The notes under the pieces are model-generated. The model did not search any database, had not been told where the DNA came from, and saw nothing but the letters and a program-made list of their open reading frames with translations. From Candidatus Methanoperedens sp. (lineage in GTDB: Archaea > Halobacteriota > Methanosarcinia > Methanosarcinales > Methanoperedenaceae), in the NCBI GenBank assembly GCA_012026795.1, contig VEPM01000027.1, positions 1 to 54,509 on the forward strand: DNA of 54,509 nt, given 5' to 3'. Positions 3,503 to 44,348 of the stretch are shown here, piece after piece. The number at the start of each line of letters is the position of its first letter. Position 1 is the first letter of the stretch. The position numbers and the translations under genes are program-made.

Positions 3503-3527
3503 ATATAATAAGAAATACTACGAAAAG

Positions 3528-3536
3528 TATTTATAA
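3528..3536 (+). promoter_or_regulatory. TATA-like box upstream of the membrane CARF gene
   Basis: TATTTATAA lies 43-51 bp upstream of the GTG start at 3579, just after the degenerate repeat. This suggests that the effector-side gene has its own promoter rather than depending on read-through from the array. Confidence 0.4.
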
Positions 3537-3578
3537 TGTCAATCTGGATTAAGTAATATATCAATTGGTGGTATTGAT

Positions 3579-4391: not shown

Positions 4392-4422
4392 TCTATGATT
4401 TAATGAACATTACAATTGATCT

Positions 4423-4435
4423 AAAAATATAAATT
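4423..4435 (+). promoter_or_regulatory. TATA-like box upstream of cas10
   Basis: AAAAATATAAATT lies about 60 bp before the preferred cas10 ATG (4494) in the 78-102 bp gap after the CARF gene. It is the only obvious promoter-like tract before the tightly packed effector genes, so cas10 to the last cas7 probably form one transcript. Confidence 0.4.
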
Positions 4436-4493
4436 TGGGTGATAGGATAATGAAAAAACAAAATTTTATTTGCATAAAAGGCTGGATGATAAA

Positions 4494-8269: not shown

Positions 8270-8270
8270 T

Positions 8271-9665: not shown

Positions 9666-10258
9666 AAGATATAGGTAACGGGTTACAATTTAGACAAATT
9701 AAATCGAGTATATCAAAGTTCAATATCATTGAAATTCAAGATTTCAATTCCATAAAATCGTTAGTCAAAGATTATTTTGGGCAAAAAGGCTTATGTGTTT
9801 TTTATCTTGATTATAAGGTGCTGATAGGTAAATATGATGGAGAAGACTTCAAATTTTATGAAAATAAAGAATTTGAACCGCAATTTATTCAAAAAATGAG
9901 GTTATTCAACACTGATAGGGAATTATTCGTCTGGAAAGAAAATAGAAATGGATTCAGAGGAAGATTAAGGATCGATGAAACGGGAAATAAAGTAGATGTA
10001 GTAGATGCATATCAGGTTTTGTGGGGAACAAAACTGGAATTTAGAGGGGAATTCACTGAAATATCAGAGGAAAGAGGAACGAAATTAGTACTTCCAGTAA
10101 AACATCTCAAAGTTGACAACTCTGAAAACAGAGCATTTATTCTAACTCGCAATTACATTTCATATGAAACTTACGACTCCACATACGAGCAAGCCGGATA
10201 TGAAGATTGTAGATTCGTGTCAATTACGGATAAAAATAGAAACCCATGTGGGGTGTGA
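9662..10258 (+). CDS. csx19: Csx19-like type III-D accessory subunit (TIGR03984-like)
   Basis: This is a 198-residue protein. The central part MRLFNTDRELFVWKENRNGF followed by RGRLRIDE (about 79-107) matches my recollection of the Csx19/TIGR03984 family, which is restricted to type III-D loci and is a structural subunit in the III-Dv complex. Further on are VDAYQVLWGT and a basic, aromatic C-terminal region. It has no nuclease motif, membrane segment or CARF motif. It overlaps the cas7-2x gene by 4 bp and the reading frame of the next gene by up to 13 bp, so it belongs to the effector operon. The position between cas7-2x and the large Cas7 supports the call; the sequence match is less certain than for its neighbours. 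Confidence 0.65.
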   Translation: MKDIGNGLQFRQIKSSISKFNIIEIQDFNSIKSLVKDYFGQKGLCVFYLDYKVLIGKYDGEDFKFYENKEFEPQFIQKMRLFNTDRELFVWKENRNGFRGRLRIDETGNKVDVVDAYQVLWGTKLEFRGEFTEISEERGTKLVLPVKHLKVDNSENRAFILTRNYISYETYDSTYEQAGYEDCRFVSITDKNRNPCGV

Positions 10259-10260
10259 AC

Positions 10261-19200: not shown

Positions 19201-19422
19201 GATTGGGCGATCCGCCATTTATTTATAGTGCCACAGCTTAATCACAATTTAGATAGGATTCTGCTCAAAAATCTTGTGTGTGAGTGGTATCTCTACGGGA
19301 TATGGTGAAAAAATGGTTTTGAAAAACTTTTGCGGAGGGAGGGCCCTCAGGATCGCGGTCGGGATAACGGCTCTGCCAATTATTAAAAACAATAATCAAT
19401 ATAAATAATGGAGTTAAATATT

Positions 19423-22400
19423 ATGAAAAAACATATTTCAATAAAAACATTCTTAGCAATTTTTTTGCTTACTTTGATGACTATTGCAGTCGCAACCCCA
19501 ATAGTAACAGCTGTTTCCAATGGCAAGATTGCTTTTGTGAGCAACAGGGATGGTAATGATGAGATATATTCAATGAATGCGGACGGTACCGGACAGACAA
19601 GGCTGACCAATAACACCGCCAGTGATGTGAATCCTGCCTGGTCATCTGATGGAACCAGGATTGCATTCGTAAGTAATAGGGATGGAAACAATGAGATTTA
19701 TGTAATGAATGCAGATGGCAGCAACCAGCAAAGACTGACTTCCAGCACTTCTAGCGACATAAACCCGACATGGTCACCAGATGGAACAAGGATTGCTTTT
19801 GCAACCAACAGAGATACTGGCTCCTGGGTCGGATATGAGGTATATGTCATGAATGCAAATGGCAGCAATCAGCAAAGGCTAACCAATAACACTGTTGACG
19901 ATGTGAACCCAACATGGTCACCAGACGGAACCAGAATTGCATTTATAACTAATAAGGACGGCAACTATGAGATTTATGTAATGAATGCAGATGGCAGCAA
20001 TCCGCAAAGGAGGACAAATAACACTGCTTCTGATGGGAACCCGGCATGGTCACCTGATGGAACAAAAATTGCATTTGTTAGAAATTCCGGAACTTGGGTT
20101 GCTGATATCTATATCACGAATGCATATACATGCCAGGAATGTACGGGTACAGCCCCGACAGACCTGTCCCAATCACCCAGTGCTGATGCAGATCCAGCTT
20201 TCTCACCAGATGGAACAAAGATTGCATTTGCAACTTCTAGGGATGGCAACTATGAGATTTATATAATGAATCCTGACGGCAGTGAGCAGATAAGGGTGAC
20301 TAATAATACTGCTTCGGATCGGGAGCTGAGCTGGCAGCCCATTTCAGCTACCCTGTTGCCCGGCATCTCAATAAACGATATAACGTTGACAGAACCCAAT
20401 TCTGGTACAAGAAACTTTGTCTTTACGGTAACAAGATCAGGTAATACAACAGGTGTCTCATCTGTAAACTTTTCAACAGCAAATGGAACTGCAATTGCAC
20501 CGTCAGACTATACATCAAACTCCGGAACAATAACCTTTGCAGCCGGAGAAACAACAAAGAATGTTACTATAATGGTGAATAGTGACACTACAATAGAGCC
20601 AGACGAAACGTTCTTTGTGAATTTATCAAACTGTATCGGATGCAGCATTACTGACAACCATGGAGTAGGTACAATCCTTAATGGGCAACTACTTGAACTC
20701 TTCAACGTATATATTTCACCAGATATTAATACAATTGGTCTTGGAAGCAGCAAAAAATCCACAATTACAATAAACAACTATGGTTCTGCAGCAAGCAATT
20801 ACAACATAAGTATTTCTGGACTAAATGACACCTGGTATACTCTCGAAAGAACGAATGTTAATCTTAACCCTGGAGAAATCAGTAATGTTAACATCAATAT
20901 AACATTGCCTTCAACTTGCTCCATAAGTGAAACATCAAGAAATTTCAGCGCATATGTTTCTTCCGTTGTCACAAATGCAACTGAGTCAGATCAGGCAGAG
21001 CTCAGAATTGACTCCGGTCATTCAATCAATAACCTTTTGCCAGTGAATCGAAGTAGACTGAGTTCCACGGATATAGCAATAACCTGGGATACTTATGGTA
21101 ATGCAACCACTGAAGTTTATTACAGGGCGCAGAACGAGGCGAATTATACCGCAATTACAGGGGCAAATGGTCGACAGCACTTTGTAAGGTTATTTAATCT
21201 TTCCAGAAATACATGGTATGCGTATTATGTCAGGAGCAATACCTCATGTGGTTCATCAGAGAGTGCAATTAATTATTTCTTCATAGATAATGGAATATCA
21301 TTTACTCAAAAAATATATTCTTTCAATATAAACAGGGACTATGACCAGCGAGTACAGGTTACGGTGAAGAACACAGATTCTAAACCGCACAGGTTACTAA
21401 TGCATGTTACCAATCCCTATGATGACTTGATAGGCAACTTCGTAGGGAGCGGCTCTGAGGATCAAATAATAACTTTATCCCCTGGCCAGTCAATGGCTGA
21501 AACACTTGCATTGCATGCTCAGGACGCTTTGCTCGGGAGCTATAAGCTCGGCTTGAATCTCACCAACATAGACGATAATACTACAGAATACATACACGAC
21601 TTTGCCATTGCAAACATCAATGTTTATCATCCTTATATCAACTTCTCTATCGATGAGATGAGCAGCGACAATATTACTTTAAAAAAGAAGTTTAGAATAA
21701 CAAATTACGGGGATACGATAACTGACTTGAAAGTAAGCATAGACGATGAGCATAAGAATTCAGTTTTCTTTGAACCATCCATAAATCACGGTTACCTGCA
21801 AAAAGGAGGCATGATGGAGTTTGAGGCTGTTCCTGCATTAGTTCCTGGTACAACAGGTTTCACTGCCACTATTTCCGTAAGCGGAGCAGGCGAAGAGGTG
21901 AACAAAACCACCAATTTTAACACACCTGAAGGCGAGAGGATATTTGTTGGGATAAGTCCGCCATTAAATATAAAATTCCTGGAACCGTTTGATGCTGATG
22001 GAATCAATTACACAAATCCGCCAGAAGAAAGCGTTCTGGCACCTTTTGTGGTTGGCAATACAGTTTCATTATTGGGCAAGGTAGGTGTTTTAGTTGAACA
22101 GTTTAATAGGCCTGTTAGCGGTGCAAATGTGTCATTGATTTTGAGATATGATTACCCGGGTAATAGCAATGTTACAACAATTTATGGGACGAGTAATCTA
22201 TTTGGGGTGGCTTCATTTACCATTTTTGGCCCACCTGGAAATTACAGCTATTCTGCCGAGTTGACTGGTATTGGCAAAACTACAGAGACAAGAAACTTCA
22301 GTGTAAATGAGATTCCATTCAAGTCTTTCCAGCCATTTTCTGTGATATGGACCAATGCTTCAGAAGCTAACATAAGCTATGAAATAAACAACTCCATGAA

Positions 22401-25400
22401 TTTAACTTTAGACTCACCACCGTTTGTAATAAAAGCCAAAAAGACGGGCTTGAAGCCAGATTCTGTTGCAGAAATATACTTTAAAGACAGCGCAGGAATT
22501 ACGGACTTTGAATCAGCAGGTGAAATTTCGGGAGATGAAATAATTTTCAATATATCTTCAATAGATCCGGGTGAGTACTCTGCTCTCATAATGATTTCTG
22601 ATCCGACTGAAATAGCAACCTCTATACAGAAGACATTTATATTTACCGAAAATGCCTCAATCGTAGTTGATTTAAATCCTGATTACGTGTCCGTGTTGCC
22701 ATTTAAGGCTAACGGCACAGATGTTGATTTCGTAAGGATGAAACATGTTACTAAAGAACAGGATGGCAGTAAGCTATTCAAGCTGATCAATATAGAACCT
22801 GTGAACTCCACTACGATCTTGCTGACATATGCTATAGCAGTGAACAAAACAATGAGCGATGATTTGCATCTTAATGTCACTATCAATGGCAATGTTATCT
22901 ACAGGGAATCAAGAACAATATCTTTCATGGAATTTGAACCTGAATTTGTGGAATTGTATATTCCTGTAAACCTGAATACTCAACCAGCATTCAATATTTC
23001 TTTTATTATGGAGGATCCGTCTTCGTTTGAGGAGGTGTTTACTTTAGAGCCTCGCAGTATTTACAGCAATACAGAGAACTTCTTTAGCGACAACCAGTTC
23101 AAGGCACAAATGCAAGTATTTACTTCTTCAAACTCGAACATGTCAGCACTTGGCAATCCGTTCGAACCTCACACCAAAGACGGAGTAATAGCCAAATGTA
23201 TCGGTAGATTTATACCGGGTGTTGGTACCGTAATGGGTGCATTTGACATTGGTTATGCCATGAAAGAAATCGCTGCAAGTGAAGGAATTGAGGCAATTGA
23301 GAAAACAATCGAAACTGTAGGGGGTATAAGTGAAACTACGATTGAACCGTTATCAAAAATAGAAACAAAGCGAATCGTAAAAGATCTATTAGGGCGTATA
23401 GGGGACAAGAATTATCGATTGATAAAAATAAAGGAATATAAGCACCTTAGAAACCTTCTAAAATTAGCTGGACCATTGAATTTTATTGGCAATGTTGGCT
23501 CTAACATAGAGGACTGGAATAGAGTTGTCGAAGAAGGCGGTGACTGGTCTGCTTTTGGGATTAACATATTAAAAAAGATTAAAGACTGGTATTGCACAAA
23601 TAGACCTGTTATAAATAACACGTTTAATATTCCGCCTACAGTGCCAAGTATCTTGAATGACGGCACACCGAATGTAGATATGGCTTATATTATACCAGAT
23701 TATACCCTGCCCTGGCCTGAAAACAGCTACAAACCACATAATGTAGATATTCTATTGAATGGACAGGGTACTGTTGGTCTAACGAACACGATACCGAATG
23801 GTTACTACCAGTTTTCAATGGATCCAAGTCTCTTGAATTTCGGTTCAGGTCTTTCCAGCGGTATTAACACTATAACAACTTCCACGACTCATCTAAATGG
23901 CGGTCATTATATAGTTTCTTCGAACATGAGAGTAATTGTACACTACAAAATTGCCACACTATCTGTCAGTGCAAAAAACCAGAGTGATGCCGATAATAAA
24001 ATACTTGGAATGGTTGATCAATTCACAGGTAATCCGGATTTAGTTATAAACCAGAGGGAAATAATAGCACCTACCAATGCACCTCTGGGTGAATCCGGAT
24101 TTATTAATATCACAGTGCATAATTATGGAACTCAAGTTGCAGGTGATGTGCTTGTTCAACTCCAGGATAATGATACTGTCATGAATAAGACGATATTTTA
24201 CCTGCCAGTTGGAGGCAGCTATAACATGAGCTTCGATTGGAAGCCATCTACTTCAGGCCAACATACAATCTCTATTAAGCTGAATCCGGATAAGCAAATC
24301 CAGGAAATAGATTATTCGAACAACGAAGCGTCCAAACTCATCACAGTAGGCAGCACATCCGATAACATACCGCCTCAGAGCATCAGTAACCCGGTCTTGC
24401 AGGCAGCAGGCACTACCTGGCTCAAATTCGCCTGGACCAATCCCCTTGATCCCGATTTCTCCCAGGTCATGCTCTACCTTAACGGTAGCTTCAAGACCAG
24501 CGTCCAGGCGCCGGAGAACTACTACAATTTCACAGGACTGAATCCAGATACTTTGTATGAACTCGGAACGCATACGGTGGATACTTCAGGCAATATCAAC
24601 CTGACGTGGGTTAATGCTACTATGAGAACAGCATCTGAAATAATAACTCCAACTCCATCAATTACAGTGGTTTCTCCTAACGGCAGTGAGAACTGGACAA
24701 TAGGCACAACCCAGATGATACGCTGGACTTATAGCGGCACTCCCGGATCCTTTGTAAATATCACACTCCTGAAGGGTGGGATATTTGATCGCACAATCAA
24801 CTCAAGTACTTCAATAGGAAGTAGCGGTTCTGGTTCCTATACCTGGCTAATTAACCCGGCCCAAGCGATGGGGACGGATTATAAAATCATGGTTACTAGC
24901 ATAACAAATAGCTCATATAACGACACCAGCAACAACTTCACTATCAATGCCTCCGCAATATTACCTATCAACGTAATCTCTCCCAATGGCGGTGAGAACT
25001 GGACCAGAGGCAAAACCCAAATTATCAACTGGACATCAACTGGCAGTCCGGGAACGTATGTGAAAATAGAACTATTGAAAGCAGGGGTCCTGAATAGTGT
25101 GATCATAGCAAGCACACTAAATGACGGCTCACACTCATGGCTAATTCCTGCAACCCAGACTCCAGGAACTGACTATAAGATAAGGATCACTAATACCTCC
25201 AATTCCTCATACACAGATACCAGCGACAACAACTTCACAATCCCGGCCCCAAATATAACTGTCACTGCCCCGAACGCAGGAGAAACCTGGAGAAGAGGGA
25301 CAACTCAAACAATCAAATGGAATTCAAGTGGCAGTCCGGGAACATATGTAAAGATAGAGCTCCTTAAAGGAGGGGTTTTGAACAGGCTGATCATAGCGAG

Positions 25401-26691
25401 CACCGTTAACGACGGTTCACATCCGTGGCTTATTCCCGCGACACTGGCACCGGGAACGGACTATAAAGTGAGGATCACAAGCACAACCAATGCGGCTTAC
25501 AACGACACAAGCGATGCCAATTTCACTATCCCTGTACCATCCATCACTATCGTAACTCCAGATGGTGGAGAGAACTGGACGCGAGGTACAACCAAGATCA
25601 TTAATTGGAACTCTACTGAGAGTCCCGGAACGTATGTTAAGATAGAACTGCTGAAAGCAGGAACCCTCAACAGGGTGGTCATAGCAAGCACCTTGAATGA
25701 CGGTTCACATCCATGGGTTATTCCCGCGACACTCGTCCCGGGAAAAGACTATAAAGTAAAGATTACGAGCATAATCAACATCTCAAATAGCGACACCAGC
25801 GATAATAACTTCACCATTCCGACCCCATCCATCAATGTCGTCTCACCAAATGGCGCAGAGAACTGGACACGGGGAACAACTAAAATCATAACCTGGAACT
25901 CTACTGAGAGTCCCGGATCGTATGTGAAGATAGAACTGCTCAGACCAGGAAAGCCGAACCAGTTGATCATATCAGCAACCCTGAATGACGGCTCACACCC
26001 CTGGTTAATTCCAGCAGCACAGGCGCCGGGGAGCGATTATAAAGTGAAGATAACTAGCGCCATTAACGCTTCAAACAATGACACGAGCGATGATAATTTC
26101 ATGATCCCCGCCCCATCATTCAAGGTGGTTTCTCCCAACGGAGGGGAGAACTGGATACGAGGAAGCACTCAAATAATAAAATGGAATTCTACTGAGAGTC
26201 CCGGAACGTATGTGAAGATAGAACTCCTTAAAGGAGGAGTTTTGAACAGGGTGATCATAGCGAGCACCATCAATGACGGCTCACATCCATGGATAATTCC
26301 AGCAACACAAACTCCAGGAGATGACTATAAAGTGAGGATCACAAGCACAGCCAATGTTTCGAACACGGACACAAGCGATGCCAACTTCACTATCCCGGTA
26401 CCTTCCATCACTGTTGTAACTCCAAATGGCGCAGAAAACTGGACACGTGGAACAACTAGGATCATCAACTGGAGTTCTACTGAAAGTCCTGGATCGTATG
26501 TGAAGATAGAACTGCTGAAATCAGGAGTCCTTAACAGGGTGATCATAGCAAGCACCATCAATGACGGCTCACATCCATGGCTAATCCCGGTTACACAGGC
26601 TACAGGAAGTGATTACAGAGTGAAGATAACAAGCACCATTAACATATTAAATAATGATGCAGGCAATAATGACTTCACGATTGGGAGTTGA
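19423..26691 (+). CDS. Giant secreted repeat protein: beta-propeller, Calx-beta, CARDB, Fn3 and seven KNH-like repeats
   Basis: The ATG at 19423 has GGAG nine bases upstream; an earlier in-frame ATG at 19408 is less likely. The 2,422-residue product begins with a signal peptide ([20 protein letters not shown]). Next come about six WD40-like/TolB-type blades of about 45 residues (NxDGSNxQRLTNN, [13 protein letters not shown]; about 30-310), a Calx-beta domain (about 310-405), several Ig-like/NEW3 regions, an unusual helical, Lys-rich segment near residues 1245-1390, a CARDB domain (about 1535-1630) and an Fn3-like domain (about 1645-1735). Seven repeats of about 95 residues with PNGxENWTRG and [10 protein letters not shown] follow (Kre9/KNH-like). 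NxS/T sequons are dense, fitting an S-layer-associated glycoprotein. No transmembrane or PGF-CTERM anchor is seen. Confidence 0.88.
24655..26690 (+). repeat. Seven tandem coding repeats of about 287 bp
   Basis: Units start near 24658, 24967, 25252, 25547, 25834, 26119 and 26407. Later copies share long near-identical DNA blocks, such as GTATGTGAAGATAGAACT and ATGACGGCTCACATCC, so the array has recently expanded or is being homogenised. Confidence 0.85.
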
Positions 26692-26776: not shown

Positions 26777-29700
26777 CTAACTTGAACCAGGCAGCCATGC
26801 CCTTCCTCCCCAAACAAAGGTGTCCTTGTTTGTATCGGTCAATGTATTCATAAAGAGCCAGTATCCCTGTCCCTTGTTCAATGGTGTACGATCTGTCAGA
26901 TCATCTCCGACAGTGTAGGTCTTGCGGGGATTCTTATAAGATACCAGGTATGAATACAGTGGTTTCCCGCCTATCTGGAGGGGCTGGAAAAGAAGGCCTG
27001 CGTCCAATTGTTTATTTTGCTCCTGTTCTTGCTTACTTGCAACAACCCCGATAAGATTCCAGCCTTCAAAGAGGTCCCTGCCTGGAGGAGGTGTGGATCC
27101 AACATTCGTATCTGCAATGAATCCGATACTCTGGTTGGATGCAGTAACATTGATCCAGTATCCATACAGGGGTTGCAGGTCAGCAGGCGTGGAGAAGGTC
27201 TTATTTCCAGGATCATATCCAACAAGTCCATTATTTTTCACGTTCTTCAGTATCATGTCAACACTGTCCGGATTTGCGAAATTCGGGATGGATATTAAAT
27301 TCCAGCCCGGATCCAGGTCAAATACCATGTCTGCAAATGCGATATCTGTGCTGCCTGTTGTTTTGCCGTTTGTTGCCGTAACGGTTACGAACTGGGCTAT
27401 ATTTGAACTCACTGGCAGGGTAGCTACTCCATTGCTGAATGTTACATTTGGCGGATAGATTACAGCGCTTGCATTCTTGCTTGCATTAACAGTTATACTC
27501 GCCATTCCATTAAAGCTCGTATCTGTTGTATTAACATTTAGAGCCTTTACTGTTATGGTTATGGTGCCTCCGCTCAGTGCAGCAGTTCTATCGGGTGTTA
27601 ACTCGAAGGAGGTTACATTTGGTTGCTGAATTATTATTGTATTTGTGAAATTCTGGTTCATCATGTCCGAACCTGCGATGGTGACTTGAATGGACATCGC
27701 AGATACGTTTGTCCATCCCGGCTGCATCTGTTCTGCAACTGTATATGTGCCGCCGGGCAAATTCATGAACTGGTACATGCCGCTGGCATCGGTTACATTG
27801 TCCATGACCGTGTTATCTGGTTTTGTCAGGGTGATATTCCAGTTCGCAAGACCAGTTCCGTTGTTATCGAGCTTGAAGCCTGAAATCTTGAATGTCTCCC
27901 CTGGCTGCACCTGCCTGTTAGTGATGTTCTGGTTCATCACATCTGCGCCGTTTATAGTTACTTGCACAGGCATCGCAGACACGTTTGTCCATCCTGGATG
28001 CATCTGTTCATTGATAGTATAAGTGCCGTTTGACAGATTCATGAACTGGTACATGCCGCTGGCATCGGTTACATTGTCCATGACCGTGTTATCTGGTTTT
28101 GTCAGGGTGATGTTCCAGTTCGCAAGGCCCGTTCCGTTGTTATCGAGCTTGAATCCTGAGATGCTGAATGTCGGGGTCACTGATACTGCTGTTTTTATCT
28201 GACCCCGGATCTCGCCTCCGGGATTCTGAACAGTATGCACATTGGCATATGTATTACCAGCCGTCATATTATCTATCAGAGCGCTAAGAGGCATTCCTGC
28301 AAGGGGACCTGTCAGGTTTTCTGCCGTTATATTGCCCTGCGCAAGTACGCCGTCGAAGCTTTCTGTTTTCGTTGGTCCGGGATAAAGTAATGCCACTATC
28401 GGGCCATTCTGACCTACAGGTGCAAGATGGATATGTGATAATGTGGCATTTGTTATGTTGGATACGGCCAGAGTAAAGTGCACAGTGTCATTGTCCAGAA
28501 TAAATGTGGCCTGGCCCCGTGCCTCTGTGATAACTGGCGGTACTTCCTCACTGCCTGATAGGTTAGCGGTGAAAGTTTGATTTCCGGTTTGATTTCCTGG
28601 ACCCAGAGCTTGTACGGCAGCATTTGCCTCATTTGAGGATTCATTGAGCATATTGTTTACTTTCACTGGATTATGCACACCCCAGCTTCCTTCCGATGAG
28701 ACCATTTGTAGCTTCCAGTACGCATCGGCGATCATATTACGGCTCTGGTTCTTCTCACCTGCAAAGGCATTAATTGTACCCAATGCATCCGTTACCGTCG
28801 TATTTGTGACATTCCACTTTGCACGGGTATCTGCCTGTATTTTCTCGATAGTATCACTTAAATTGCCAGGCTGGGACCCGGTTGTATGGCATCCTGCGCA
28901 AGTTGTGTTGCTCTGGAGTAAATCAACATTTACCTTGAAAGAATGACCTTTCACCTTCTGGCTATCAGGCAGCACCATCTCGGTCATATTCGTCGGGTCG
29001 GTTACCTTTGTTGCCATGTGACAGGAAATGCATTCAAATCCCAGGTTTGTCTGCTTCCATGAGCCGGCAAATATATCCTTTGCAGGCAGGCCGTGAGGTC
29101 GTATTGGCGTTGTATCATTTGTATTATTCCAGCCTGGTCCTTCCCTGAAAATTCTGGGACTATCATTCGAATGGCAGTTGCCGCATAGCTCTGTTGTATT
29201 TTCCATTACCGAATAGTTAGCTTTGTATCTGGTCAGGTCACCAGTTGTGTTAAATACCGGGATCGCATCCCTGTTATACCATGCATAGGGCTTTCCGGTC
29301 TTTTTAAGCCAGTCGCCCATATCGTGGATATTATGGCAAACCGCACATGTAATACCATTAAAATCATCCGCAGATACGATTGCTCTTTCATTTAACGGGT
29401 TCCAGTTGGACGGTGAATGGCATTTGCTGCAAGAGCTTTCCCTTTCCCTCGGAACACCGGTGCTGTTGAGGTAAAAACCACCATTCGCTTTTTCATTGTG
29501 TAAGCTTTGCCTCCATTCATTTACCTCAGGTACCAGTGAAAAAATACTATGGTTCAAATTCTGATCACTTGTTACATGGCATTGTGTGCCGCGCGAACAT
29601 GTCTTTGACGGGAAGTTCACTTCATCTTTCACATTAAAGGAGTGGTTCTTTTGGGTACCTGACATGTGGCAGTCGGTGCATGTGGCAGGCGGAAGTCCTA

Positions 29701-31084
29701 ATCCCGGATAATTTAACCTCGCATGTGTCAGGTTCACTTCAGCTATATGAGACAATCCATGTTCATAGTGGCAATTTGAGCAGAGCACTTCTGAGACAGG
29801 GCCTGTCACTTCTATTGGTCCGGGGTAGCTGTCATCAATCCTGTCAGTAGGTATCGATGCTGGCGTCATGAGAGTATCATAGACATCTTTTTCTCCGGTC
29901 AGAGTACCTGTTGGGCCGCCTGTAATAAGAAGCCTGCTGGCAGTTGAATTAAATAGGCTGTTTTTTGCATCCTTCATATCAGCGTATGAGGTTTGATTGA
30001 AACCTCCGGGCGAGAATAGCTCTCTATACTTGTTATCACTTGTATCATGGGAATTATGGCAATTTGCGCACACTACATTTATTGCCGTATCACTTGTTAC
30101 AGTGTTATTCCTTGCATAATCGAACGGAGAATGGCATCTGAGGCATGTTGCAGGCGCTTTAAGCGGCGGGGAATGAGCACTTGACAGGAATAGTCCCTGC
30201 CTTGTTGAACCGTTATGGCATTCCAGGCATAACTGTTCTGATACATCCGCTTTTACCTGATGTCCGTCGCCTGCAGGGCCGTGGCATCTCTCGCATGCGA
30301 TACCAGGCTCACTCCATGTCCCCACTATACCCGGAAGGCCGCTCTGGTTACCATTGCTTGCATTATATCCTGTTGTATGGCAACGCCCGCATGTATACTG
30401 GCTGGGGCCATAATCAGCAGATGTCCCGTTTTCAGCAAAGAACCTCTTGAACAAGTATCCGGATTCGTTCAGGTATCTCAGTTCCTGTTTTCCCACTATC
30501 ACATAGGACATATCCGTCCAGGTTAAATTCGGCGGTGTTGGGAGGCCCATGCCCTGGGCAGTGCTGTTATCTGTCAGCATTACACGGTGCATTGTGCCGC
30601 GCCAGTTGTCATACTTGCTTTTGTGGCAGTTTTCACAGGTTGTCGATTTCAGGTACGTTGCAGGAACGCCAGAGATAAGAGCGAAATTACCAGCACTGAC
30701 ATTCACATGACAACTATAACAGGAGGCTGGTGGTGCAAGCCTTGCTGAAGCCAGCGTGGTATCATTGTACCTGTGCGTACTGTTATAAAAAGAACCATTA
30801 GACGTAAACGGAAGAAAACCGGTTGCTAAATTTGTATGGCAGTAAGTACAGCTGGCAGTTGATGTTAGCGGCTCTGTCAGACCATTAAATTTGTGATTTT
30901 CTTTAAAGAGAATACCGTTTGCGTTCAATGCCGGGATTCCACTGTGGCAAGCAGCACAATTACTCCCGACCACCGATCCATAAACACTATGCGCGCTTCC
31001 GGTTCCTGCCAGCGCAAGCAGTAATATCCCTATTATTCCTATCCCAATCAAAATATCTATTCTTCCCGGAATTATCTTCCTCAT
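26777..31084 (-). CDS. Secreted multihaem c-type cytochrome (16 CxxCH plus one CX5CH) with CHRD and SdrD-like domains
   Basis: This is a 1,435-residue protein with a signal peptide (IGIGIIGILLLALAGTGSAH) and a good GGGAGG site before the ATG. The first 780 residues or so carry 16 CxxCH haem-binding motifs, from CAACH near residue 43 to CAGCH near 740, plus CSRGTQCH (CX5CH), which could bind a 17th haem. A CHRD domain follows (about 829-965: SGSEEVPP, HIHLAPVGQNGP, GEIRGQI). Next are two near-identical SdrD/SpaA-like units (about 974-1149, each with SGFKLDNNGTGLANWNITLT), an Ig-like region, and a C-terminal domain with two GWNLI motifs. There is no membrane anchor. It probably carries electrons outside the membrane, bound to the surface through its beta domains. 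Confidence 0.92.
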   Translation of the reverse strand: MRKIIPGRIDILIGIGIIGILLLALAGTGSAHSVYGSVVGSNCAACHSGIPALNANGILFKENHKFNGLTEPLTSTASCTYCHTNLATGFLPFTSNGSFYNSTHRYNDTTLASARLAPPASCYSCHVNVSAGNFALISGVPATYLKSTTCENCHKSKYDNWRGTMHRVMLTDNSTAQGMGLPTPPNLTWTDMSYVIVGKQELRYLNESGYLFKRFFAENGTSADYGPSQYTCGRCHTTGYNASNGNQSGLPGIVGTWSEPGIACERCHGPAGDGHQVKADVSEQLCLECHNGSTRQGLFLSSAHSPPLKAPATCLRCHSPFDYARNNTVTSDTAINVVCANCHNSHDTSDNKYRELFSPGGFNQTSYADMKDAKNSLFNSTASRLLITGGPTGTLTGEKDVYDTLMTPASIPTDRIDDSYPGPIEVTGPVSEVLCSNCHYEHGLSHIAEVNLTHARLNYPGLGLPPATCTDCHMSGTQKNHSFNVKDEVNFPSKTCSRGTQCHVTSDQNLNHSIFSLVPEVNEWRQSLHNEKANGGFYLNSTGVPRERESSCSKCHSPSNWNPLNERAIVSADDFNGITCAVCHNIHDMGDWLKKTGKPYAWYNRDAIPVFNTTGDLTRYKANYSVMENTTELCGNCHSNDSPRIFREGPGWNNTNDTTPIRPHGLPAKDIFAGSWKQTNLGFECISCHMATKVTDPTNMTEMVLPDSQKVKGHSFKVNVDLLQSNTTCAGCHTTGSQPGNLSDTIEKIQADTRAKWNVTNTTVTDALGTINAFAGEKNQSRNMIADAYWKLQMVSSEGSWGVHNPVKVNNMLNESSNEANAAVQALGPGNQTGNQTFTANLSGSEEVPPVITEARGQATFILDNDTVHFTLAVSNITNATLSHIHLAPVGQNGPIVALLYPGPTKTESFDGVLAQGNITAENLTGPLAGMPLSALIDNMTAGNTYANVHTVQNPGGEIRGQIKTAVSVTPTFSISGFKLDNNGTGLANWNITLTKPDNTVMDNVTDASGMYQFMNLSNGTYTINEQMHPGWTNVSAMPVQVTINGADVMNQNITNRQVQPGETFKISGFKLDNNGTGLANWNITLTKPDNTVMDNVTDASGMYQFMNLPGGTYTVAEQMQPGWTNVSAMSIQVTIAGSDMMNQNFTNTIIIQQPNVTSFELTPDRTAALSGGTITITVKALNVNTTDTSFNGMASITVNASKNASAVIYPPNVTFSNGVATLPVSSNIAQFVTVTATNGKTTGSTDIAFADMVFDLDPGWNLISIPNFANPDSVDMILKNVKNNGLVGYDPGNKTFSTPADLQPLYGYWINVTASNQSIGFIADTNVGSTPPPGRDLFEGWNLIGVVASKQEQEQNKQLDAGLLFQPLQIGGKPLYSYLVSYKNPRKTYTVGDDLTDRTPLNKGQGYWLFMNTLTDTNKDTFVWGGRAWLPGSS
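27640..28170 (-). repeat. Internal direct repeat of about 250-270 bp within the cytochrome gene
   Basis: The two SdrD-like domains are encoded by DNA that is nearly identical over long blocks (for example around 27765-27895 and 28040-28165), indicating recent tandem duplication inside the gene. Confidence 0.85.
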
Positions 31085-37815: not shown

Positions 37816-38625
37816 ATGAGAAAAAGCACTTTTGACGAAATAATACAATCTCTTCGATGTAAGAAATCAAAAATTATATATTTGAGGGGCATCACAGCAA
37901 TGTTATTTCTATTATCTTTCGTCAGCGTTAGCTCAGCTTTCTACGAGTTTATTCCTGAAATAGATGGACAAATTCAGGACGATGAATATCAAAATCATTA
38001 CAGGGATACTAAAATAAATATGGATATTTACTGGACGCTGAATGAGGAAAATATATACATGGCAATGAGAAGCCATGCTAAAGGATGGATGGGCATCGGC
38101 ATAGCTCCCACAGGCTCTCTGATGCAAGGAGCGGATATAATTCTGGGTTATATGAAAGATGGCAAATTGTTTATCCAGGATAATTTTGCCAATTCAGCTG
38201 TAAATCATGCTCCTGATACCGCTCTTGGTGGAAAAAATGATATTCTGGAATCTGCAGGTTCCGAGAGCGATAAGGGTATGGTTATCGAGTTTAGAAGGAA
38301 ACTAAATACTGAAGATAGTTTTGACAGGGCTTTGACAGATAATGAGTATAAAGTCCAGTTAGCATATTCAGATACAGATGACCTGACCAGCTATCATCCG
38401 GCAAAATCAATAGCATATATAAACTTCTTTTCAGGCAAAGGGAAGAATGATGCAGATAATCCAGGAAAGGAAGATAGCGTCTTAAAAACCCAAAACCCGG
38501 CAACTGATTCCATCCCAACCGGAAAGGATCGGTATCAATCCTTCCTTACCATGATTACCGGAGTTATCTCAATTGCAGGTATAGCAGCTGCTTTGCTTAT
38601 CATTCCGGAAAATAGGAGGAAGTAA
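37816..38625 (+). CDS. DOMON-domain protein with a signal and a C-terminal membrane anchor
   Basis: This is a 269-residue protein. The signal sequence is around GITAMLFLLSFVSVSSA (about 25-41), followed by a DOMON-type beta sandwich: DGQIQDDEYQNHYRDTK, MDIYWTLNEENIYMAMRSHA, KGWMGIGIAPTGSLMQGADI, SYHPAKSIAYINFF. DOMON domains bind haem b or sugars and often partner with b561-type cytochromes. The Met in SLMQGADI and a His in YHPA are candidate axial ligands. A C-terminal helix (about 245-263) and basic tail anchor it. It is immediately followed by a polytopic membrane protein (ATG on the next base), so the pair probably forms a transmembrane electron-transfer unit. Confidence 0.82.
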   Translation: MRKSTFDEIIQSLRCKKSKIIYLRGITAMLFLLSFVSVSSAFYEFIPEIDGQIQDDEYQNHYRDTKINMDIYWTLNEENIYMAMRSHAKGWMGIGIAPTGSLMQGADIILGYMKDGKLFIQDNFANSAVNHAPDTALGGKNDILESAGSESDKGMVIEFRRKLNTEDSFDRALTDNEYKVQLAYSDTDDLTSYHPAKSIAYINFFSGKGKNDADNPGKEDSVLKTQNPATDSIPTGKDRYQSFLTMITGVISIAGIAAALLIIPENRRK

Positions 38626-39201
38626 ATGAGTCATTTACACACAATTTCGGCCGAGATGCATACCGGGATGCTTGTCCTGGCATTCATTTCTATTTCACTT
38701 ATAATAATTATAGATAAACTGGGAAAATTCCCAAAAATAACCGGGGTTCTTGAGCAGACCGCCTATGTTTCAGCACTGGCCGGGTTGTTGTTCCTTATAC
38801 TCAGTGCTGTAACCGGGGTCACCTCGACCTGGCCAGGGGAGGCTTTGTTTGCTTCCCCTTTAGTCCTGAATAAGATAATTTTCACAGGATTCGCAATAAT
38901 ATTCTGGATGATATTCCTGCTTATAAGATGGAAGTATGGAGTAGATTTATGGAAGAGCCTGAAGCTGAAATCTTTGTATGTTTCGATGGCTCTGGGAGGA
39001 TTTTTAAGCATAACGCTGACTGGTTCAATGGGAGGACATGTAGCCGGGAAAGAAAGCCTGCTTGATCTCTTTTTGCATAAATGGGGAATAAACACCCACA
39101 TACCCTTTACCCTGCCTGAAACATGGATAGTTCCAATACTGGCATTTGTTTTTTCCATTTTGATTGTATCCATATTGCTAAGATTGAAGAATTGGCAGTA
39201 G
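38626..39201 (+). CDS. Polytopic membrane protein, probable b-type cytochrome partner of the DOMON protein
   Basis: This is a 191-residue protein with about five hydrophobic helices (MLVLAFISISLIIII, YVSALAGLLFLILSAVTG, IIFTGFAIIFWMIFLLI, YVSMALGGFLSITLTG, WIVPILAFVFSILIVSIL). Histidines lie at membrane borders: MSHLHTISAEMHTGM at the start, GGHVAGKESLLD after helix four, and HKWGINTHIP. This resembles DUF2231/b561-like haem proteins, but no exact family signature is clear. It starts directly at the DOMON stop. I infer that it passes electrons between a membrane quinone-like pool and the DOMON protein or the multihaem cytochromes encoded next. Confidence 0.6.
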   Translation: MSHLHTISAEMHTGMLVLAFISISLIIIIDKLGKFPKITGVLEQTAYVSALAGLLFLILSAVTGVTSTWPGEALFASPLVLNKIIFTGFAIIFWMIFLLIRWKYGVDLWKSLKLKSLYVSMALGGFLSITLTGSMGGHVAGKESLLDLFLHKWGINTHIPFTLPETWIVPILAFVFSILIVSILLRLKNWQ

Positions 39202-39313
39202 TAATTGCTTAAGAGGATATGAACTGAGGATAAATCAAGCTTTTCGCATAGTATTACCAAACATTTCTAAATACTTTGCGCTTTAGAAAATTAATATATT
39301 ATGTATATTTATC

Positions 39314-39374
39314 TTGGCTTTATAAAGCACAACTGTATTAAAAACCAAAGTCCATATACAAAATTATTAACATG
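39314..39374 (+). promoter_or_regulatory. Promoter-like element upstream of the cytochrome operon (related to copies A and B)
   Basis: TTGGCTTTATAAAGCACAAC (39314-39333) and ATTAACATG (39366-39374) resemble copies A and B in order and spacing but are more diverged. CTTTATAAAG is itself palindromic and TATA-like. It lies 16 bp before the start of the 12-haem cytochrome gene. A further weak relative, TTTTTAAAGCACAAATGTG, occurs near 54040. Confidence 0.4.
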
Positions 39375-39389
39375 ATCATGGTATAGATT

Positions 39390-42152
39390 ATGCTCGTTTT
39401 GAAAAACAGGATGCAAATTAGAAATGGCAGCAGCAATCAATATGTTAATCGTTATTATTTGGCTGTTGTCATAATATTTGTTCTGACATTCTTCTCATCT
39501 CTGGCATATGCCACAGACGGCAATTCTCAAGATTATAATGCTTCGGATAACAGCACAAATTCATCAGCCGGCCACATTCACCCGAATACGACTGCAAATT
39601 CTTCCTTGCACCTTCATCCGGATGCGAATCTGTCCGTAGCCTTCCTGATAAAAGACATTGCGGAACAAATAAAAGTTAATATCGAGGACTTCGGAACAAA
39701 AAATCCTGTGGCTTCAGAACCACCTGGTTTCCCGGTCAGGTTTTTTAAGGCAGATGCACAGAACATTTCTTTCGAAAACATCACCGTTAATATATCATAT
39801 TCGGAAATGGAGTTAAAAGATACTGATGAAGGAAAACTCATGATTTTCCGGCATGAACACAATAATTCAATATGGGTCATGCTGCCCACAAAAGTGGACA
39901 AGGAAGGAAATACTCTGGAGGCAACAACCGATTCTTTATCTCTATTTGCAGTTTCATCTCATTCTGATAATTCCTCTTTCCATAACCATAATAACACACC
40001 CAAAATCGAGAACAACACCTCCCATGACCATGCAGATAAAGATTTAGCGCCGATATCAGTTTCCTTCACAGGACCCGTGGGCACAAAAATCGTCCTTGAG
40101 CTGGATAGTAAAAATAGCTCCATTGCTTCATTACCCGGAAGCCCGATTAAATTCTTCAGGATAGACGCCGTAAATTTATCATATGATAAAGTGAATATGG
40201 AGGTAGCATACTTCGATTCAGAATTGAACATAACGAATGAAAACAACCTTTCTATCTTCCATTATTCCAATTCAACGTGGTCACAGTTGCCCACTGAATT
40301 AATTGAAGGCGAAAATATACTGAGGGCATCTACAGAATCCTTATCCCTGTTCGCAGTTTCTTCTTTTTCCGACACCGGGCACAATATGACCGGGTATAAT
40401 ATGAGTATGGGAATAGTGTCCGAGTGCCTGCGATGTCACGGGAGCAGTAAGAATTACAGCAGCGGCATGATGGGAAAAATGACCCCGAAAATCAATGAAA
40501 GCATCATGAACCTGAGCATTCATGCAGGTCTGAATAACGCAAGTTCCGATCCCAACAGGGCATGCTGGGCATGTCATTCCAACTCAACAACACCGCCGAT
40601 AAAGCACCCGATGCATAATCCTGCGATCACATGCACCTCCTGCCACATCTCCGGGAAATTTAATTCGCTGAGAACAACCGAGCATACTACCCGTGCTGTA
40701 AATATCACAGTGAATGCCACATGCCAGCTATGCCACGGCAAACCAGAGATGATAAACCTCAATGGGAGCAACCCGAATTCGACAATATCTCATTACGGTA
40801 AGAAAAGAACAGATATGATTGATCAAAATAAGTCCGGCACCAACTGCACTTCCTGCCACCAGGATCCGGGTTCCGGGTTCTCGGATGTTTTCAATAAGAC
40901 CTCAAGGACGAACATAACTCACAATGGTGGTATTGGTTGCTCATCTTGCCACGGCACAGGCAGGCTACACAATTCAACACTTGCAAATATGCAGGGTTAT
41001 AATTTACCGAATTGCATACAGTGCCACGGGACAGGTGGCTTTGCCCTGAATAAAGTAAGCGAATCATCCATCAACCAGAGTATTCATGCAAACCTGAACA
41101 ATGCAAGTTCAAGTCTCAACCGGGCATGCTGGACATGTCATTCAAATATAATTACTGCACCTGCTGCACACCCGGATATAGCTGAACAGCCGGATACCTG
41201 CTCCACATGCCACATTGACGGCCCTCTTAACCTGACAAAAAAATTAAAGCCAAATCATCTGTCAAGGCATACTCCCGAAAGCAGCCAGGTAAAGGTTGCG
41301 GCAGCCTGCATCCTTTGCCATAGCAATAATGTCCTTGTTTCAGGGAAAACAATAAATTCCACTGTATCTCATTACGCCCAATACCCGAAAGTGGATACCA
41401 GGGATTGTGTAAGCTGCCACCAGGATAAAGAAACCGGGAAGAAATGGGGGAGCCCGCCTGACCCGAGAGAGACAATCCAGCTTGTTGAGGTTGAAAAGAA
41501 ACTTGTTTCAGATGAAACCTGGAAACTTGACCGGAACTACAGCATAGCGATCACCGAAGTGGATAAAGAAGGCCAGTCGGCCTGGCTTGAACTGTATTAC
41601 AACGGGAAACTGGTACGGAAAGACCTTGTTCCCGAAGGTGGCATCTTCAAGTATGATGCGAAACTTGTTGAGAACGGCGATAAAAAAACAATAATCGATC
41701 TTGGGATATCGGAAATATTATACGGCGGAACAGTGAGCCTTGTGACTTTTCGCGGATTTGTGCCAAAACATATACATACCGAAACGAGCAGCTTCCAGTG
41801 CTACACCTGCCATGTCAGGGATTACAGGCAGGCTAAGCCGGACGGGTACAGGTATTTCGTACTCAAGAACGAGAAGGAGAATATCACATTAAGCCAGATG
41901 GACATCGATTTCTCAGCCGCTGATAAAAAAACGATATACCCGGGTGAATCATGGGATCTTGGAAGCGGATATGAACTGAAGATAAAGGATTTCAGCCGCA
42001 CAAATATGTATCTCACATTAATAAAAAACAATATTGTTGTCAAAGAGGAGTTCGTCAGGGAAGGGGATTACTTCACATACAATACAACATCGAATGGCGT
42101 CGAGGTCACGATGTTAAGCCTGAAGATAGCTGGTATGTTCGTAAATGGATGA
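39390..42152 (+). CDS. 12-haem c-type cytochrome fused to PGF-pre-PGF and S-layer-type domains
   Basis: This is a 920-residue protein with a signal peptide (YYLAVVIIFVLTFFSSLAYA). Two repeated beta domains follow (about 85-195 and 215-325; shared SPGFPVRFF/PGSPIKFFRIDA-like start, LMIFRHEHNNSIWVMLP, SLSLFAVSSHS), matching PGF-pre-PGF domains of archaeal surface proteins. Twelve CxxCH motifs occupy residues 345-690 and 812 (CLRCH, CWACH, CTSCH, CQLCH, CTSCH, CSSCH, CIQCH, CWTCH, CSTCH, CILCH, CVSCH, CYTCH). Two domains like the Methanosarcina S-layer tile unit (WKLDRNYSIAITEVDKEGQ at about 710, WDLGSGYELKIKD at about 853) flank the last haem. This suggests a cytochrome built into or across the S-layer. 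Confidence 0.9.
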   Translation: MLVLKNRMQIRNGSSNQYVNRYYLAVVIIFVLTFFSSLAYATDGNSQDYNASDNSTNSSAGHIHPNTTANSSLHLHPDANLSVAFLIKDIAEQIKVNIEDFGTKNPVASEPPGFPVRFFKADAQNISFENITVNISYSEMELKDTDEGKLMIFRHEHNNSIWVMLPTKVDKEGNTLEATTDSLSLFAVSSHSDNSSFHNHNNTPKIENNTSHDHADKDLAPISVSFTGPVGTKIVLELDSKNSSIASLPGSPIKFFRIDAVNLSYDKVNMEVAYFDSELNITNENNLSIFHYSNSTWSQLPTELIEGENILRASTESLSLFAVSSFSDTGHNMTGYNMSMGIVSECLRCHGSSKNYSSGMMGKMTPKINESIMNLSIHAGLNNASSDPNRACWACHSNSTTPPIKHPMHNPAITCTSCHISGKFNSLRTTEHTTRAVNITVNATCQLCHGKPEMINLNGSNPNSTISHYGKKRTDMIDQNKSGTNCTSCHQDPGSGFSDVFNKTSRTNITHNGGIGCSSCHGTGRLHNSTLANMQGYNLPNCIQCHGTGGFALNKVSESSINQSIHANLNNASSSLNRACWTCHSNIITAPAAHPDIAEQPDTCSTCHIDGPLNLTKKLKPNHLSRHTPESSQVKVAAACILCHSNNVLVSGKTINSTVSHYAQYPKVDTRDCVSCHQDKETGKKWGSPPDPRETIQLVEVEKKLVSDETWKLDRNYSIAITEVDKEGQSAWLELYYNGKLVRKDLVPEGGIFKYDAKLVENGDKKTIIDLGISEILYGGTVSLVTFRGFVPKHIHTETSSFQCYTCHVRDYRQAKPDGYRYFVLKNEKENITLSQMDIDFSAADKKTIYPGESWDLGSGYELKIKDFSRTNMYLTLIKNNIVVKEEFVREGDYFTYNTTSNGVEVTMLSLKIAGMFVNG

Positions 42153-42158
42153 GTACGT

Positions 42159-44345
42159 ATGAATGAATTGATAAAATACCTGTTTTTTATTATTCTCATC
42201 TTCCAGGTGATCAATGTATCATCTGCCGCTGCGGCGGAAGTGGCAATTATCGTAATTGAAGATGTTCGCCACCTGTCAAATGAAACGTATGTGATCGGGC
42301 AAAATGAAACTGTTGGAAATTATACCGGTTCGGAACTGGTTCCGGGGCAGTATATAAAAATAGGTGAAGTGCCGGCAACGTTCCATGAATCTTCCCTGAC
42401 CAGCGGGAATTTCAGCCCTGAATGCAGCGGCTGTCACAACCTCGGTGGATTAGCCGCAAAGCAGATAGATGTTAATGCTTTAAGAAAGAGCGTCCATGCG
42501 AACCTCAATAACAGGACAGAAAGCAAAGGAGTAACCGATCCGGTCAACAAGGCGTGCTGGGCATGTCACGGCAACGGCACCATGCCTGTGACCCATCCTG
42601 AAGAATACCTGGCGCCAAGATCATGCGCATCATGTCATTCATTTACTACTTCTTATAATGCCACGGGTGTAAATGGCCACACAAAAGCCGGGGAAAAATT
42701 GGTTTTGAAAATAAACTGCGAGATATGCCACGGCAACAGTCTCGTAAAATCCGGATTTAATATTTCGAAAGCCAATGTTTCGCATTACGCTGCAAATATA
42801 ACATATAACTCCACAGATTGTCTTTCCTGCCACGGGAATCCTGCCAATGCCACTAAATGGGGGAACGCGTCCCGGGTATATTCCCACGCTAAAAACGGTT
42901 CATGTATTGATTGCCACGGAACAGGGCAGGTTAAAACGCTGCACGATATAAATCTTACAATTCCCGCTGAGAGAACATGTATAAAATGTCATACGAGAGA
43001 GGACGCTGCTGAAAAATACGGGGTCAGGGATATTATCCGCACACATTATCCGGGAGCGCCGCAAGGGCGGGCAAATACGACAGCGCAGAATGCCAGCTTC
43101 TCATGCGAGCTGTGTCATAATACGGCCAACACTACGCTCCATAACCGCTCCCTGACTAAAAATCTCCTGGAGCTGAATAATATTCCACAGGATGACAACT
43201 TATCACAGATATTTTGCTCTGAGTGCCACAGTACGGAAGGAAGCTTTCCATATAAGCCTGCAGTCCAGATCCCGCGCATCATTCATGGTAACCAGAGAGA
43301 GCACGTCGCGCTGGGGATGAAACTAAATTGTGAAACATGCCATGAATCAGGGAAAGTGAACAGGTTCCATAAACCCACACTTTCCTGGGAAAGACCTGTT
43401 GGAAGGGTTGCGGATAGCAGGAATGCACAATGTACGGACTGCCACAATATCCATATAAAGCAGAACCTGCAAAACACCACATGTTCTACATGCCATTCAG
43501 GTTATGATGCTTCCCACTTCAGTACACTCACAGTGGAAAATATTAACAAGACTTTTACCTGTGGAGCATGCCATAACGAGATTAAAAACCAGTTCCATAA
43601 TCTTTCTAACCGGGAAAAAGACTTTATGAAAGATGAGAAAAAACCGGATGTCCAACAGGTTATATCCTGCGATTCCTGCCATAATAGCACTGGAAAAGAG
43701 AGATTCCATTACAGTGAATTCCCGACAGGAAGCGTCCAGTCCCCGGGGTGGACAGACTGGAGCCGGGGAGAAAGAGCGCAATGCGCTGATTGCCATGTCA
43801 GATATGGCGGAGATACCCCGTTTAATGCCACAAATCTCACCAACCCGCAACACAGGGCTGCAAGTAACTGCAATTTGTGCCATGGCGGGGACACTCCCAT
43901 CGGTCTCCATGTGCTTTCGAGTTCAAACACAACACCGTATATAAAAGATATTATCCTTGTTCCCTCAAGGATCATTTCCGGTAAAAAGATTTCAATGAAT
44001 ATTCTTGCCATATCGGGATGGGATGCCAATATCACAGGCGCAGAGTATTTTATCGATACTGTGAAGGATGGAGGGAAAGGCAGGAACCTGACACTTGGAA
44101 AAGAACTGGCAGGTAAACAGGCCATAGAAGCATACTCAGATGTGGATACAGGCGGATTAAAAGAAGGGACACATATAATCTATGTGCATGCCCGTGATTC
44201 AAAGGACAGGTGGGGAGATGTAAGACCTGTACCTTTCGTGATAAACAAAACATTGAGCATCTGGCATATTTTTGAGCACCAGGAGCTTGTTTTCGGGATA
44301 ATCGGTATTTTGGCAATAATGTATATTATTAAAAAAACCAGGTAA
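42159..44345 (+). CDS. 16-haem c-type cytochrome with a C-terminal membrane anchor
   Basis: This is a 728-residue protein starting 6 bp after the previous cytochrome. It has a signal peptide (YLFFIILIFQVINVSSAAAA), a short beta region, then 16 CxxCH motifs from CSGCH (about residue 89) to CNLCH near 570. Many additional histidines are available as distal ligands. An Ig-like domain (about 590-695: ISGWDANITGAEYFIDT, GTHIIYVHARDSKDRWG) and a final helix (LVFGIIGILAIMYIIKKTR) follow. It probably forms the membrane-proximal part of a wire delivering electrons to the S-layer cytochrome encoded upstream. The haem-to-length ratio is typical of ANME extracellular cytochromes. Confidence 0.92.
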   Translation: MNELIKYLFFIILIFQVINVSSAAAAEVAIIVIEDVRHLSNETYVIGQNETVGNYTGSELVPGQYIKIGEVPATFHESSLTSGNFSPECSGCHNLGGLAAKQIDVNALRKSVHANLNNRTESKGVTDPVNKACWACHGNGTMPVTHPEEYLAPRSCASCHSFTTSYNATGVNGHTKAGEKLVLKINCEICHGNSLVKSGFNISKANVSHYAANITYNSTDCLSCHGNPANATKWGNASRVYSHAKNGSCIDCHGTGQVKTLHDINLTIPAERTCIKCHTREDAAEKYGVRDIIRTHYPGAPQGRANTTAQNASFSCELCHNTANTTLHNRSLTKNLLELNNIPQDDNLSQIFCSECHSTEGSFPYKPAVQIPRIIHGNQREHVALGMKLNCETCHESGKVNRFHKPTLSWERPVGRVADSRNAQCTDCHNIHIKQNLQNTTCSTCHSGYDASHFSTLTVENINKTFTCGACHNEIKNQFHNLSNREKDFMKDEKKPDVQQVISCDSCHNSTGKERFHYSEFPTGSVQSPGWTDWSRGERAQCADCHVRYGGDTPFNATNLTNPQHRAASNCNLCHGGDTPIGLHVLSSSNTTPYIKDIILVPSRIISGKKISMNILAISGWDANITGAEYFIDTVKDGGKGRNLTLGKELAGKQAIEAYSDVDTGGLKEGTHIIYVHARDSKDRWGDVRPVPFVINKTLSIWHIFEHQELVFGIIGILAIMYIIKKTR

Positions 44346-44348
44346 TTT

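Follow-up and report, generated by a model that had tools for sequence, protein, structure and literature searches.

A cytochrome gene with a composite C-terminal tail

The window considered here is a contig of 54,509 nucleotides from the archaeon Candidatus Methanoperedens sp. (GenBank assembly GCA_012026795.1, contig VEPM01000027.1), and the gene under study is an open reading frame on its minus strand (26777..31084) that begins with ATG and encodes a product of 1435 amino acids. The protein carries 16 CX2CH motifs and one CX5CH motif (residue 496), and all 34 of its cysteines lie inside these haem motifs; 1000 shuffles of the protein gave a mean of 0.03 CX2CH motifs and a maximum of one. 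In a Pfam scan, multihaem families span residues 75–827. They are followed by a CHRD domain (PF07452, residues 838–963, E 2.2e-30, 106.4 bits against a cut-off of 24), matched over model positions 1–117 of 117, and then, within residues 975–1145, by SpaA (E 4.8e-18) and SdrD_B (E 9.6e-14), each in two stretches. The initial annotation, made from the sequence alone, had described a haem-rich half joined to CHRD and two tandem adhesin-like units, which the motif count and Pfam bear out. The annotated 16–17 haems can be set at 17, given the conservation of the CX5CH site, and the description of the tandem repeats as nearly identical in DNA applies to their middle only: they form a direct repeat of 255 nucleotides with 84% identity overall, in which the longest identical run is 75 nucleotides and one 51-nucleotide block reaches 98%. 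Two further parts had gone unmentioned, namely an immunoglobulin-like (Ig-like) stretch with a weak Big_1 match at residues 1161–1250 (E 0.0048, below the Pfam cut-off), and the C-terminal 176 residues (1260–1435), which consist of two GWNLI...GYW units in tandem with no match in Pfam or NCBIfam. The sole hydrophobic stretch in a hydropathy scan is the N-terminal signal. The features of the gene, all on the minus strand, are as follows.

26777..31084, minus: whole gene, predicted secreted 17-haem cytochrome with a CHRD/SpaA/Ig-like/GWNLI tail (open reading frame, Pfam, hydropathy)
30989..31084, minus: putative N-terminal signal peptide, about residues 1–32 (hydropathy, by inspection, with no cleavage-site tool)
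30707..30958, minus: haems 1–3 (CAACH, CTYCH, CYSCH), cytochrome c7-like (Pfam PF14522)
29576..30637, minus: OcwA-like nine-haem unit, haems 4–12 (collinear profile match to 6i5b, two blocks)
29576..29599, minus: haem 12, CX5CH (CSRGTQCH), aligned with OcwA haem 9
28592..29542, minus: NrfA-like pentahaem unit, haems 13–17 and C-terminal helices (matches to NrfA, octahaem nitrite reductase and OcwA)
29417..29431, minus: haem 13 (CSKCH, residue 552), in the position equivalent to the NrfA active-site haem (alignment of 23 rows)
28196..28573, minus: CHRD domain, residues 838–963, motifs HIH, NVHT and EIRGQ (Pfam and motif conservation)
27893..28168, minus: SpaA/SdrD_B-like repeat 1, residues 973–1064 (Pfam, DNA repeat)
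27635..27892, minus: SpaA/SdrD_B-like repeat 2, residues 1065–1150 (Pfam, DNA repeat)
27308..27625, minus: Ig-like (Big_1-like) stretch, residues 1154–1259 (weak match below the cut-off; boundaries by inspection)
26780..27307, minus: GWNLI...GYW tandem, residues 1260–1435 (no library match; single occurrence in its own genome)

The haem core and its family

A profile of residues 132–512 aligns with the nonahaem cytochrome OcwA of Thermincola potens (PDB 6I5B) in one collinear order and two blocks (E 2e-22), with haems 4–9 on OcwA haems 1–6 and haems 10–12 on OcwA haems 7–9, the OcwA haems being numbered by counting its motifs in the alignment. Residues 515–831, which hold the last five haems and the C-terminal helices, match NrfA, octahaem nitrite reductase and again OcwA. 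When haems 8–12 were compared with haems 13–17, hhalign returned a probability of 99.1 and a score of 130 with all five motifs in register, against scores of 57.5 and 34.4 for two other segment pairs (the E-values of this internal comparison each refer to a single comparison and are uncorrected). Judged by this register, the pentahaem unit of haems 13–17 is a duplicate of haems 8–12. The OcwA-collinear block and the duplicated pentahaem unit thus give the core a 3 + 9 + 5 layout, in which the NrfA arrangement of five haems is seen in sequence order only, through OcwA haems 5–9 and the NrfA matches. The electron-transfer role given to this half by the initial annotation is well supported by collinearity with OcwA, a cell-surface reductase of solved structure, and with NrfA, and this half, 830 residues long, fits best into the OcwA/NrfA superfamily as an extracellular reductase or electron-transfer protein.

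A profile search with a core alignment of 23 rows found full-length matches (E 0) to 23 genes in 17 of 31 genomes of the genus; the alignment comprises all of these genes, those fetched twice from two collections (L003–L008, identical to L032, L039 and L033–L036) being used once. At E 1e-30 or better, 26 of the 34 genomes of the taxonomic family match the alignment, and outside the genus the matches are to parts of the core. Octahaem cytochromes of about 425 amino acids (L022, L024, L025, L027, L028), which are widespread in the genus, match only core residues of about 131–382, corresponding to the first part of the OcwA-like unit. Viral contigs searched with the same alignment yielded 30 pattern-matching stretches, none of which was confirmed as a relative, and among 18 plasmid records (none covering 80% of the query) the ten matches listed were to CHRD only, with no cytochrome fusion among them. 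With spacings of 2–5 allowed, 15 of the 17 haem motifs are complete in at least 22 of the 23 rows; the less conserved ones are haem 1 (20 rows) and haem 13 (19 rows, the remaining four having CXXCK). Twelve histidines outside the motifs are invariant in all rows. His64 and haem 1 are absent from the same three rows, the pattern expected of a ligand and its haem.

The unusual motif noted in the initial annotation is present and conserved: at haem 12, 19 rows have CX5CH, one CX4CH, two CX2CH and one CX1CH, and in OcwA the equivalent position is occupied by a normal haem (haem 9). That relatives naturally swap in CX2CH is good evidence that the CX5CH site is a genuine haem site. The contracted CX1CH motif (CKCH) belongs to L015. 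In the available text of PMC6703420, OcwA is described as a cell-surface terminal reductase in which haems 2 and 5 are five-coordinate, and hence open, and haem 9 has His-Met ligation. Haems 5 and 8 of the window protein correspond to these two open OcwA haems, and haem 13 duplicates haem 8; by this analogy we infer that haems 5, 8 and 13 may be open, possibly five-coordinate, in the window protein. Haem 13 corresponds in position to the catalytic haem of NrfA; its motif is CXXCH (CSKCH) in the window protein and CXXCK in four of the 23 homologues (L014, L015, L018, L037). These four could possibly be true reductases inside a surface cytochrome family.

Compared with OcwA, the window protein shares the nonahaem order and the alignment of its CX5CH site with haem 9, but it is archaeal, its nine-haem unit is preceded by three extra haems and followed by a second pentahaem unit, and it ends in a beta-rich tail of 600 residues. 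The second-best sequence match of the core (E 3.3e-18) is the undecahaem S-layer cytochrome of Carboxydothermus ferrireducens (PDB 6QVM), which has 11 haems and a different length and which we take to be OmhA from the haem number given in the available text of PMC7829351. Resemblance to NrfA and octahaem nitrite reductase is confined to residues 515–831; CXXCH in place of CXXCK, 12 preceding haems and the tail set the protein apart, and we rejected its assignment to NrfA on the motif of haem 13. The S-layer cytochromes of anaerobic methanotrophic archaea (ANME), ANME-MHC A/B, are likewise large extracellular multihaem proteins fused to non-haem surface domains according to the available part of PMC9012536, whereas the window protein has neither the S-layer domain PF07752 nor a C-terminal membrane helix. 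Membership of that group was rejected since PF07752, present in the neighbouring gene at 39390-42152, has no match in the protein.

The C-terminal tail and its CHRD domain

The tails of the 23 family members fall into a short GWN...WTV-type module (13), CHRD (three) and other beta tails (seven), some being cut by contig ends. In the core tree the CHRD tail occupies one clade (three of 23 rows, support 100/99), which corresponds to one change; on this tree it arose once within the 17-haem family. Its bearers are the window genome (3.59 Mb in 68 contigs), its nearest named relative Ca. Methanoperedens sp. BLZ2 (88% identity in the best protein segment) and LFW-24, and each of the three also carries a short-tailed paralogue. 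The fusion of haem half and CHRD tail that the initial annotation had proposed is genuine, being present in three related species. We found no description of a CHRD-cytochrome fusion in the open-access literature, supplements not covered.

In BLZ2, the cytochrome gene (L032) shares 98.0% identity over its last 844 nucleotides with the 3' end of L038, a gene on another contig whose head combines a cupredoxin with a glucose/sorbosone dehydrogenase (GSDH), and this 3' end is the sole match between the two genes in their comparison; the window and BLZ2 differ there by about 10%. The identity is most simply read as gene conversion or exchange of the C-terminal module in the BLZ2 lineage and, to judge from these sequences, as a recent event. 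The secreted protein encoded by L038 resembles the window protein in having CHRD, SpaA-type repeats (in another order), the Ig-like stretch and the GWNLI tandem, but its head is a glucose dehydrogenase plus a blue-copper domain with two CXXCH motifs instead of the 17-haem core. Because the tail is exchangeable and its BLZ2 form has this near-identical 3' end behind another head, it looks like, and is best described as, a shared, exchangeable surface chassis for redox heads. Among 40 SpaA-type repeats from the loci, the lysine, glutamate and asparagine at the positions of the Cna_B isopeptide triad are kept in 31, 40 and 38 cases, which would fit stiff stalk domains. A giant open frame of more than 4700 amino acids with many SpaA/Cna_B-type repeats lies elsewhere in the same genome (L050, G000:C1:109000-124500). 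Adhesins of the Sdr/MSCRAMM type have a ligand-binding A region, SD repeats and an LPXTG anchor, and the B repeat of SdrD is a spacer. Only B-like repeats were recognised in the window protein by Pfam, with no A region and no LPXTG, and its match to the NCBIfam model of SdrC reached 20.7 bits against a cut-off of 1700.

CHRD has 16 matches in 11 of the 31 genomes of the genus, and in a sample of the phylum it was found in four of 246 genomes, the window genome included. The partners of the 16 domains are the 17-haem core (three), GSDH with cupredoxin (three), cupredoxin with SdrD_B (one), two blue-copper stretches (four, all divergent CHRDs) and SdrD_B alone (one), and four are free-standing. 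In 11 of the 16 cases, therefore, CHRD shares its polypeptide with a haem or blue-copper head: in this genus the domain keeps company with redox proteins. At one locus (L052, G015:C8:34500-40000), genes for a four-haem protein, NrfH-like by size, and a five-haem NrfA-like protein precede a pair of free-standing CHRD genes whose products have PEF-type C-termini; a similar free-standing pair in another genome (G024) does not stand behind such haem genes.

Among 26 typical CHRDs from archaea and bacteria (a set of 46 hits at E 1e-5 reduced to its distinct domains longer than 90 residues; two proteins, L085 and L084, together supply eight), HxH and a later histidine are invariant and an arginine is kept in 25; the four divergent CHRDs, which were analysed apart, also keep HxH and NVH. 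Aligned with copper superoxide dismutase (SOD) by hhalign, the divergent CHRDs gave 102 columns, with HIH on HIH and VH on IH, at a probability of 57.6 (reversed control 1.8), and they match the typical CHRDs at 95.3. From this motif and alignment evidence, microbial CHRD may have kept three of the four histidine ligands of copper. On that basis, the window CHRD could be an SOD-like domain with three copper-ligand histidines and a conserved arginine that tethers a mononuclear copper site to the 17-haem chain, as opposed to a sticky patch, and microbial CHRDs in general might be copper-binding redox accessories of extracellular cytochromes, cupredoxins and sugar dehydrogenases, with a role in electron relay or in clearing superoxide generated at the haems. 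We regard this extension as tentative and on balance rather unlikely. It is weakened by the typical CHRDs, which alone match SOD at a probability of only 8.0, and by the combined set of 26 typical and four divergent domains, which at 1.4 shows no signal against reversed controls of 1.8 and 2.2; the good SOD alignment is limited to the four divergent, cupredoxin-linked CHRDs. Pfam gave no PF00080 match in the window protein, and inspection of the CHRDs revealed no aligned zinc-loop histidines. The CHRD of human chordin is described in the available portion of PMC13382577 as a solved SOD fold, a Greek-key barrel, without the metal histidines and loops; it binds glycosaminoglycans, and CHRD could be a binding domain.

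Proposed role, alternatives and gene neighbourhood

We consider it likely that the window gene encodes an extracellular terminal electron-transfer protein of Ca. Methanoperedens, in which an OcwA-like plus NrfA-like haem half does the redox work and the exchangeable tail serves as a stiff spacer and attachment module, the protein not being primarily an adhesin. We propose a hypothetical sequence of steps in which (i) the protein would be secreted by Sec and matured to 17 covalent haems, so as to work outside the cytoplasmic membrane; (ii) electrons would enter from an S-layer cytochrome conduit and move along the haem chain; (iii) they would leave through the solvent-exposed, possibly five-coordinate haems 5, 8 and 13 towards metals, electrodes, partner cells or small shuttles; and (iv) the tail would hold the haem part out from the surface layer, or in register with it.

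Several observations weigh against this proposal. AlphaFold2 models of the core (from the 23-row alignment, mean predicted local distance difference test score, pLDDT, 44.0) and of the tail (from a 12-row alignment, 49.6) are poor and leave haem packing, open sites and tail shape unseen; because of the low pLDDT, neither was used for haem packing or histidine geometry. In a Foldseek search the core model retrieved OcwA first, then the C. ferrireducens undecahaem S-layer cytochrome and then octahaem and pentahaem nitrite reductases, which lends weak support to the assignment, but the global scores are low (template modelling score 0.21 and root-mean-square deviation 23.6 for OcwA). As regards the C-terminal helix bundle of OcwA-type nonahaem reductases, that model has helices at residues 742–773, 779–797 and 806–825, with block pLDDT of about 65–88, which are placed after haem 17 and not after haem 12. 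Pfam and hydropathy recognised no membrane or S-layer anchor in the protein, its gene does not adjoin an S-layer cytochrome (one is encoded about 8 kb away, at 39390-42152), and the GWNLI units bear only a weak resemblance to the GWN module found in the short paralogues (23% to the first row).

The initial annotation had favoured a bifunctional protein, in which electron transfer by the haems would be combined with attachment of the beta domains to minerals, matrix or a partner cell. Glycosaminoglycan binding by the chordin domain, the frequency of SdrD_B, SpaA and Ig-like modules in surface proteins, and the S-layer and Ig-type proteins, invasin included, retrieved by Foldseek from the low-confidence tail model would agree with such a role. 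However, the SdrD match is limited to B-type repeats and Pfam found no adhesin ligand-binding domain, the same tail stands behind a GSDH/cupredoxin head, and 13 of the 23 paralogues with the same haem core lack these domains; adhesive function is not favoured and we judge it unlikely. The NrfA-like pentahaem unit raises a further alternative, a reductase of the NrfA superfamily acting on a soluble substrate (nitrite, hydroxylamine or a sulfur oxyanion), with the surface tail for retention only. The usual NrfA active-site motif in four homologues and the slow reduction of nitrite and hydroxylamine by OcwA, as reported in the available text of PMC6703420, point in this direction. Against it stand the CXXCH at the active-site place of the window protein and the occurrence of genuine NrfA-like genes (E about 1e-132 to 1e-137) in four of the 31 genomes of the genus, separate from the 17-haem family; the window genome has no such gene, its best PF02335 match being the window gene itself (E 2.2e-11). 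We regard this alternative as quite improbable.

It is very improbable, too, that proteolysis separates the halves and that they act apart: the core does end in helices followed by a variable linker, which holds an Ig-like domain in BLZ2, LFW-24 and METP1 though not in the window protein, but no cleavage signal was recognised in the window protein and the order of parts is kept in both complete CHRD members (window and BLZ2). Tail modules common to several genes could also mislead an assembler into joining two genes, but the same fusion recurs in BLZ2 and LFW-24, the NMD3 and epimerase neighbours on one side of the gene are shared with BLZ2 in matching order (95-96% identical), and the divergence from BLZ2 is equally large in core and tail DNA (90.9% and 89.9% identity). 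On this recurrence, the shared neighbours and the equal divergence we rejected an assembly chimera, to which we give almost no credence.

Next to the cytochrome gene lies a gene (19408-26691) for a secreted protein of 2427 amino acids with a PD40 propeller, Calx-beta, CARDB and seven Kre9/KNH repeats, which in BLZ2 is missing from the place between the corresponding neighbours. About 7-15 kb from the cytochrome gene, a row of genes (37816-46301) encodes a DOMON protein, a small membrane protein, a 12-haem S-layer cytochrome, a 16-haem cytochrome and a CcmF-like protein, and has the look of a cluster for an S-layer electron conduit that includes a maturation factor of its own; CcmF next to an S-layer cytochrome has been described in ANME in the available part of PMC9012536. 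In the window genome, BLZ2 and a third genome (G013), the paralogues adjoin genes for a small secreted protein and for a cytochrome with 23 haems and 1180-1219 amino acids, which in the window genome has S-layer matches. According to the available text of PMC10874420, a 23-haem S-layer cytochrome of Ca. Methanoperedens is upregulated on electrodes. In the available text of PMC10542353, the 16-haem cytochrome Methanoperedens_00214 is upregulated 38-fold with soluble iron. The window also holds a CRISPR locus (551-12123) with Cas1, a Cas10/Cmr2 palm and several RAMP proteins, which is type III-like.

In freshwater, extracellular electron transfer by Ca. Methanoperedens helps to sustain the anaerobic oxidation of methane, and no role has been assigned to the majority of its cytochromes. 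The 17-haem family described here is a concrete candidate for the outermost electron-transfer step, with a readable ancestry from an OcwA unit and a duplicated NrfA-like unit and with CXXCK present in some members. Its natural tail variants make the role of surface domains in electron transfer testable by comparison. If microbial CHRD binds copper, a widespread domain would gain a microbial function.

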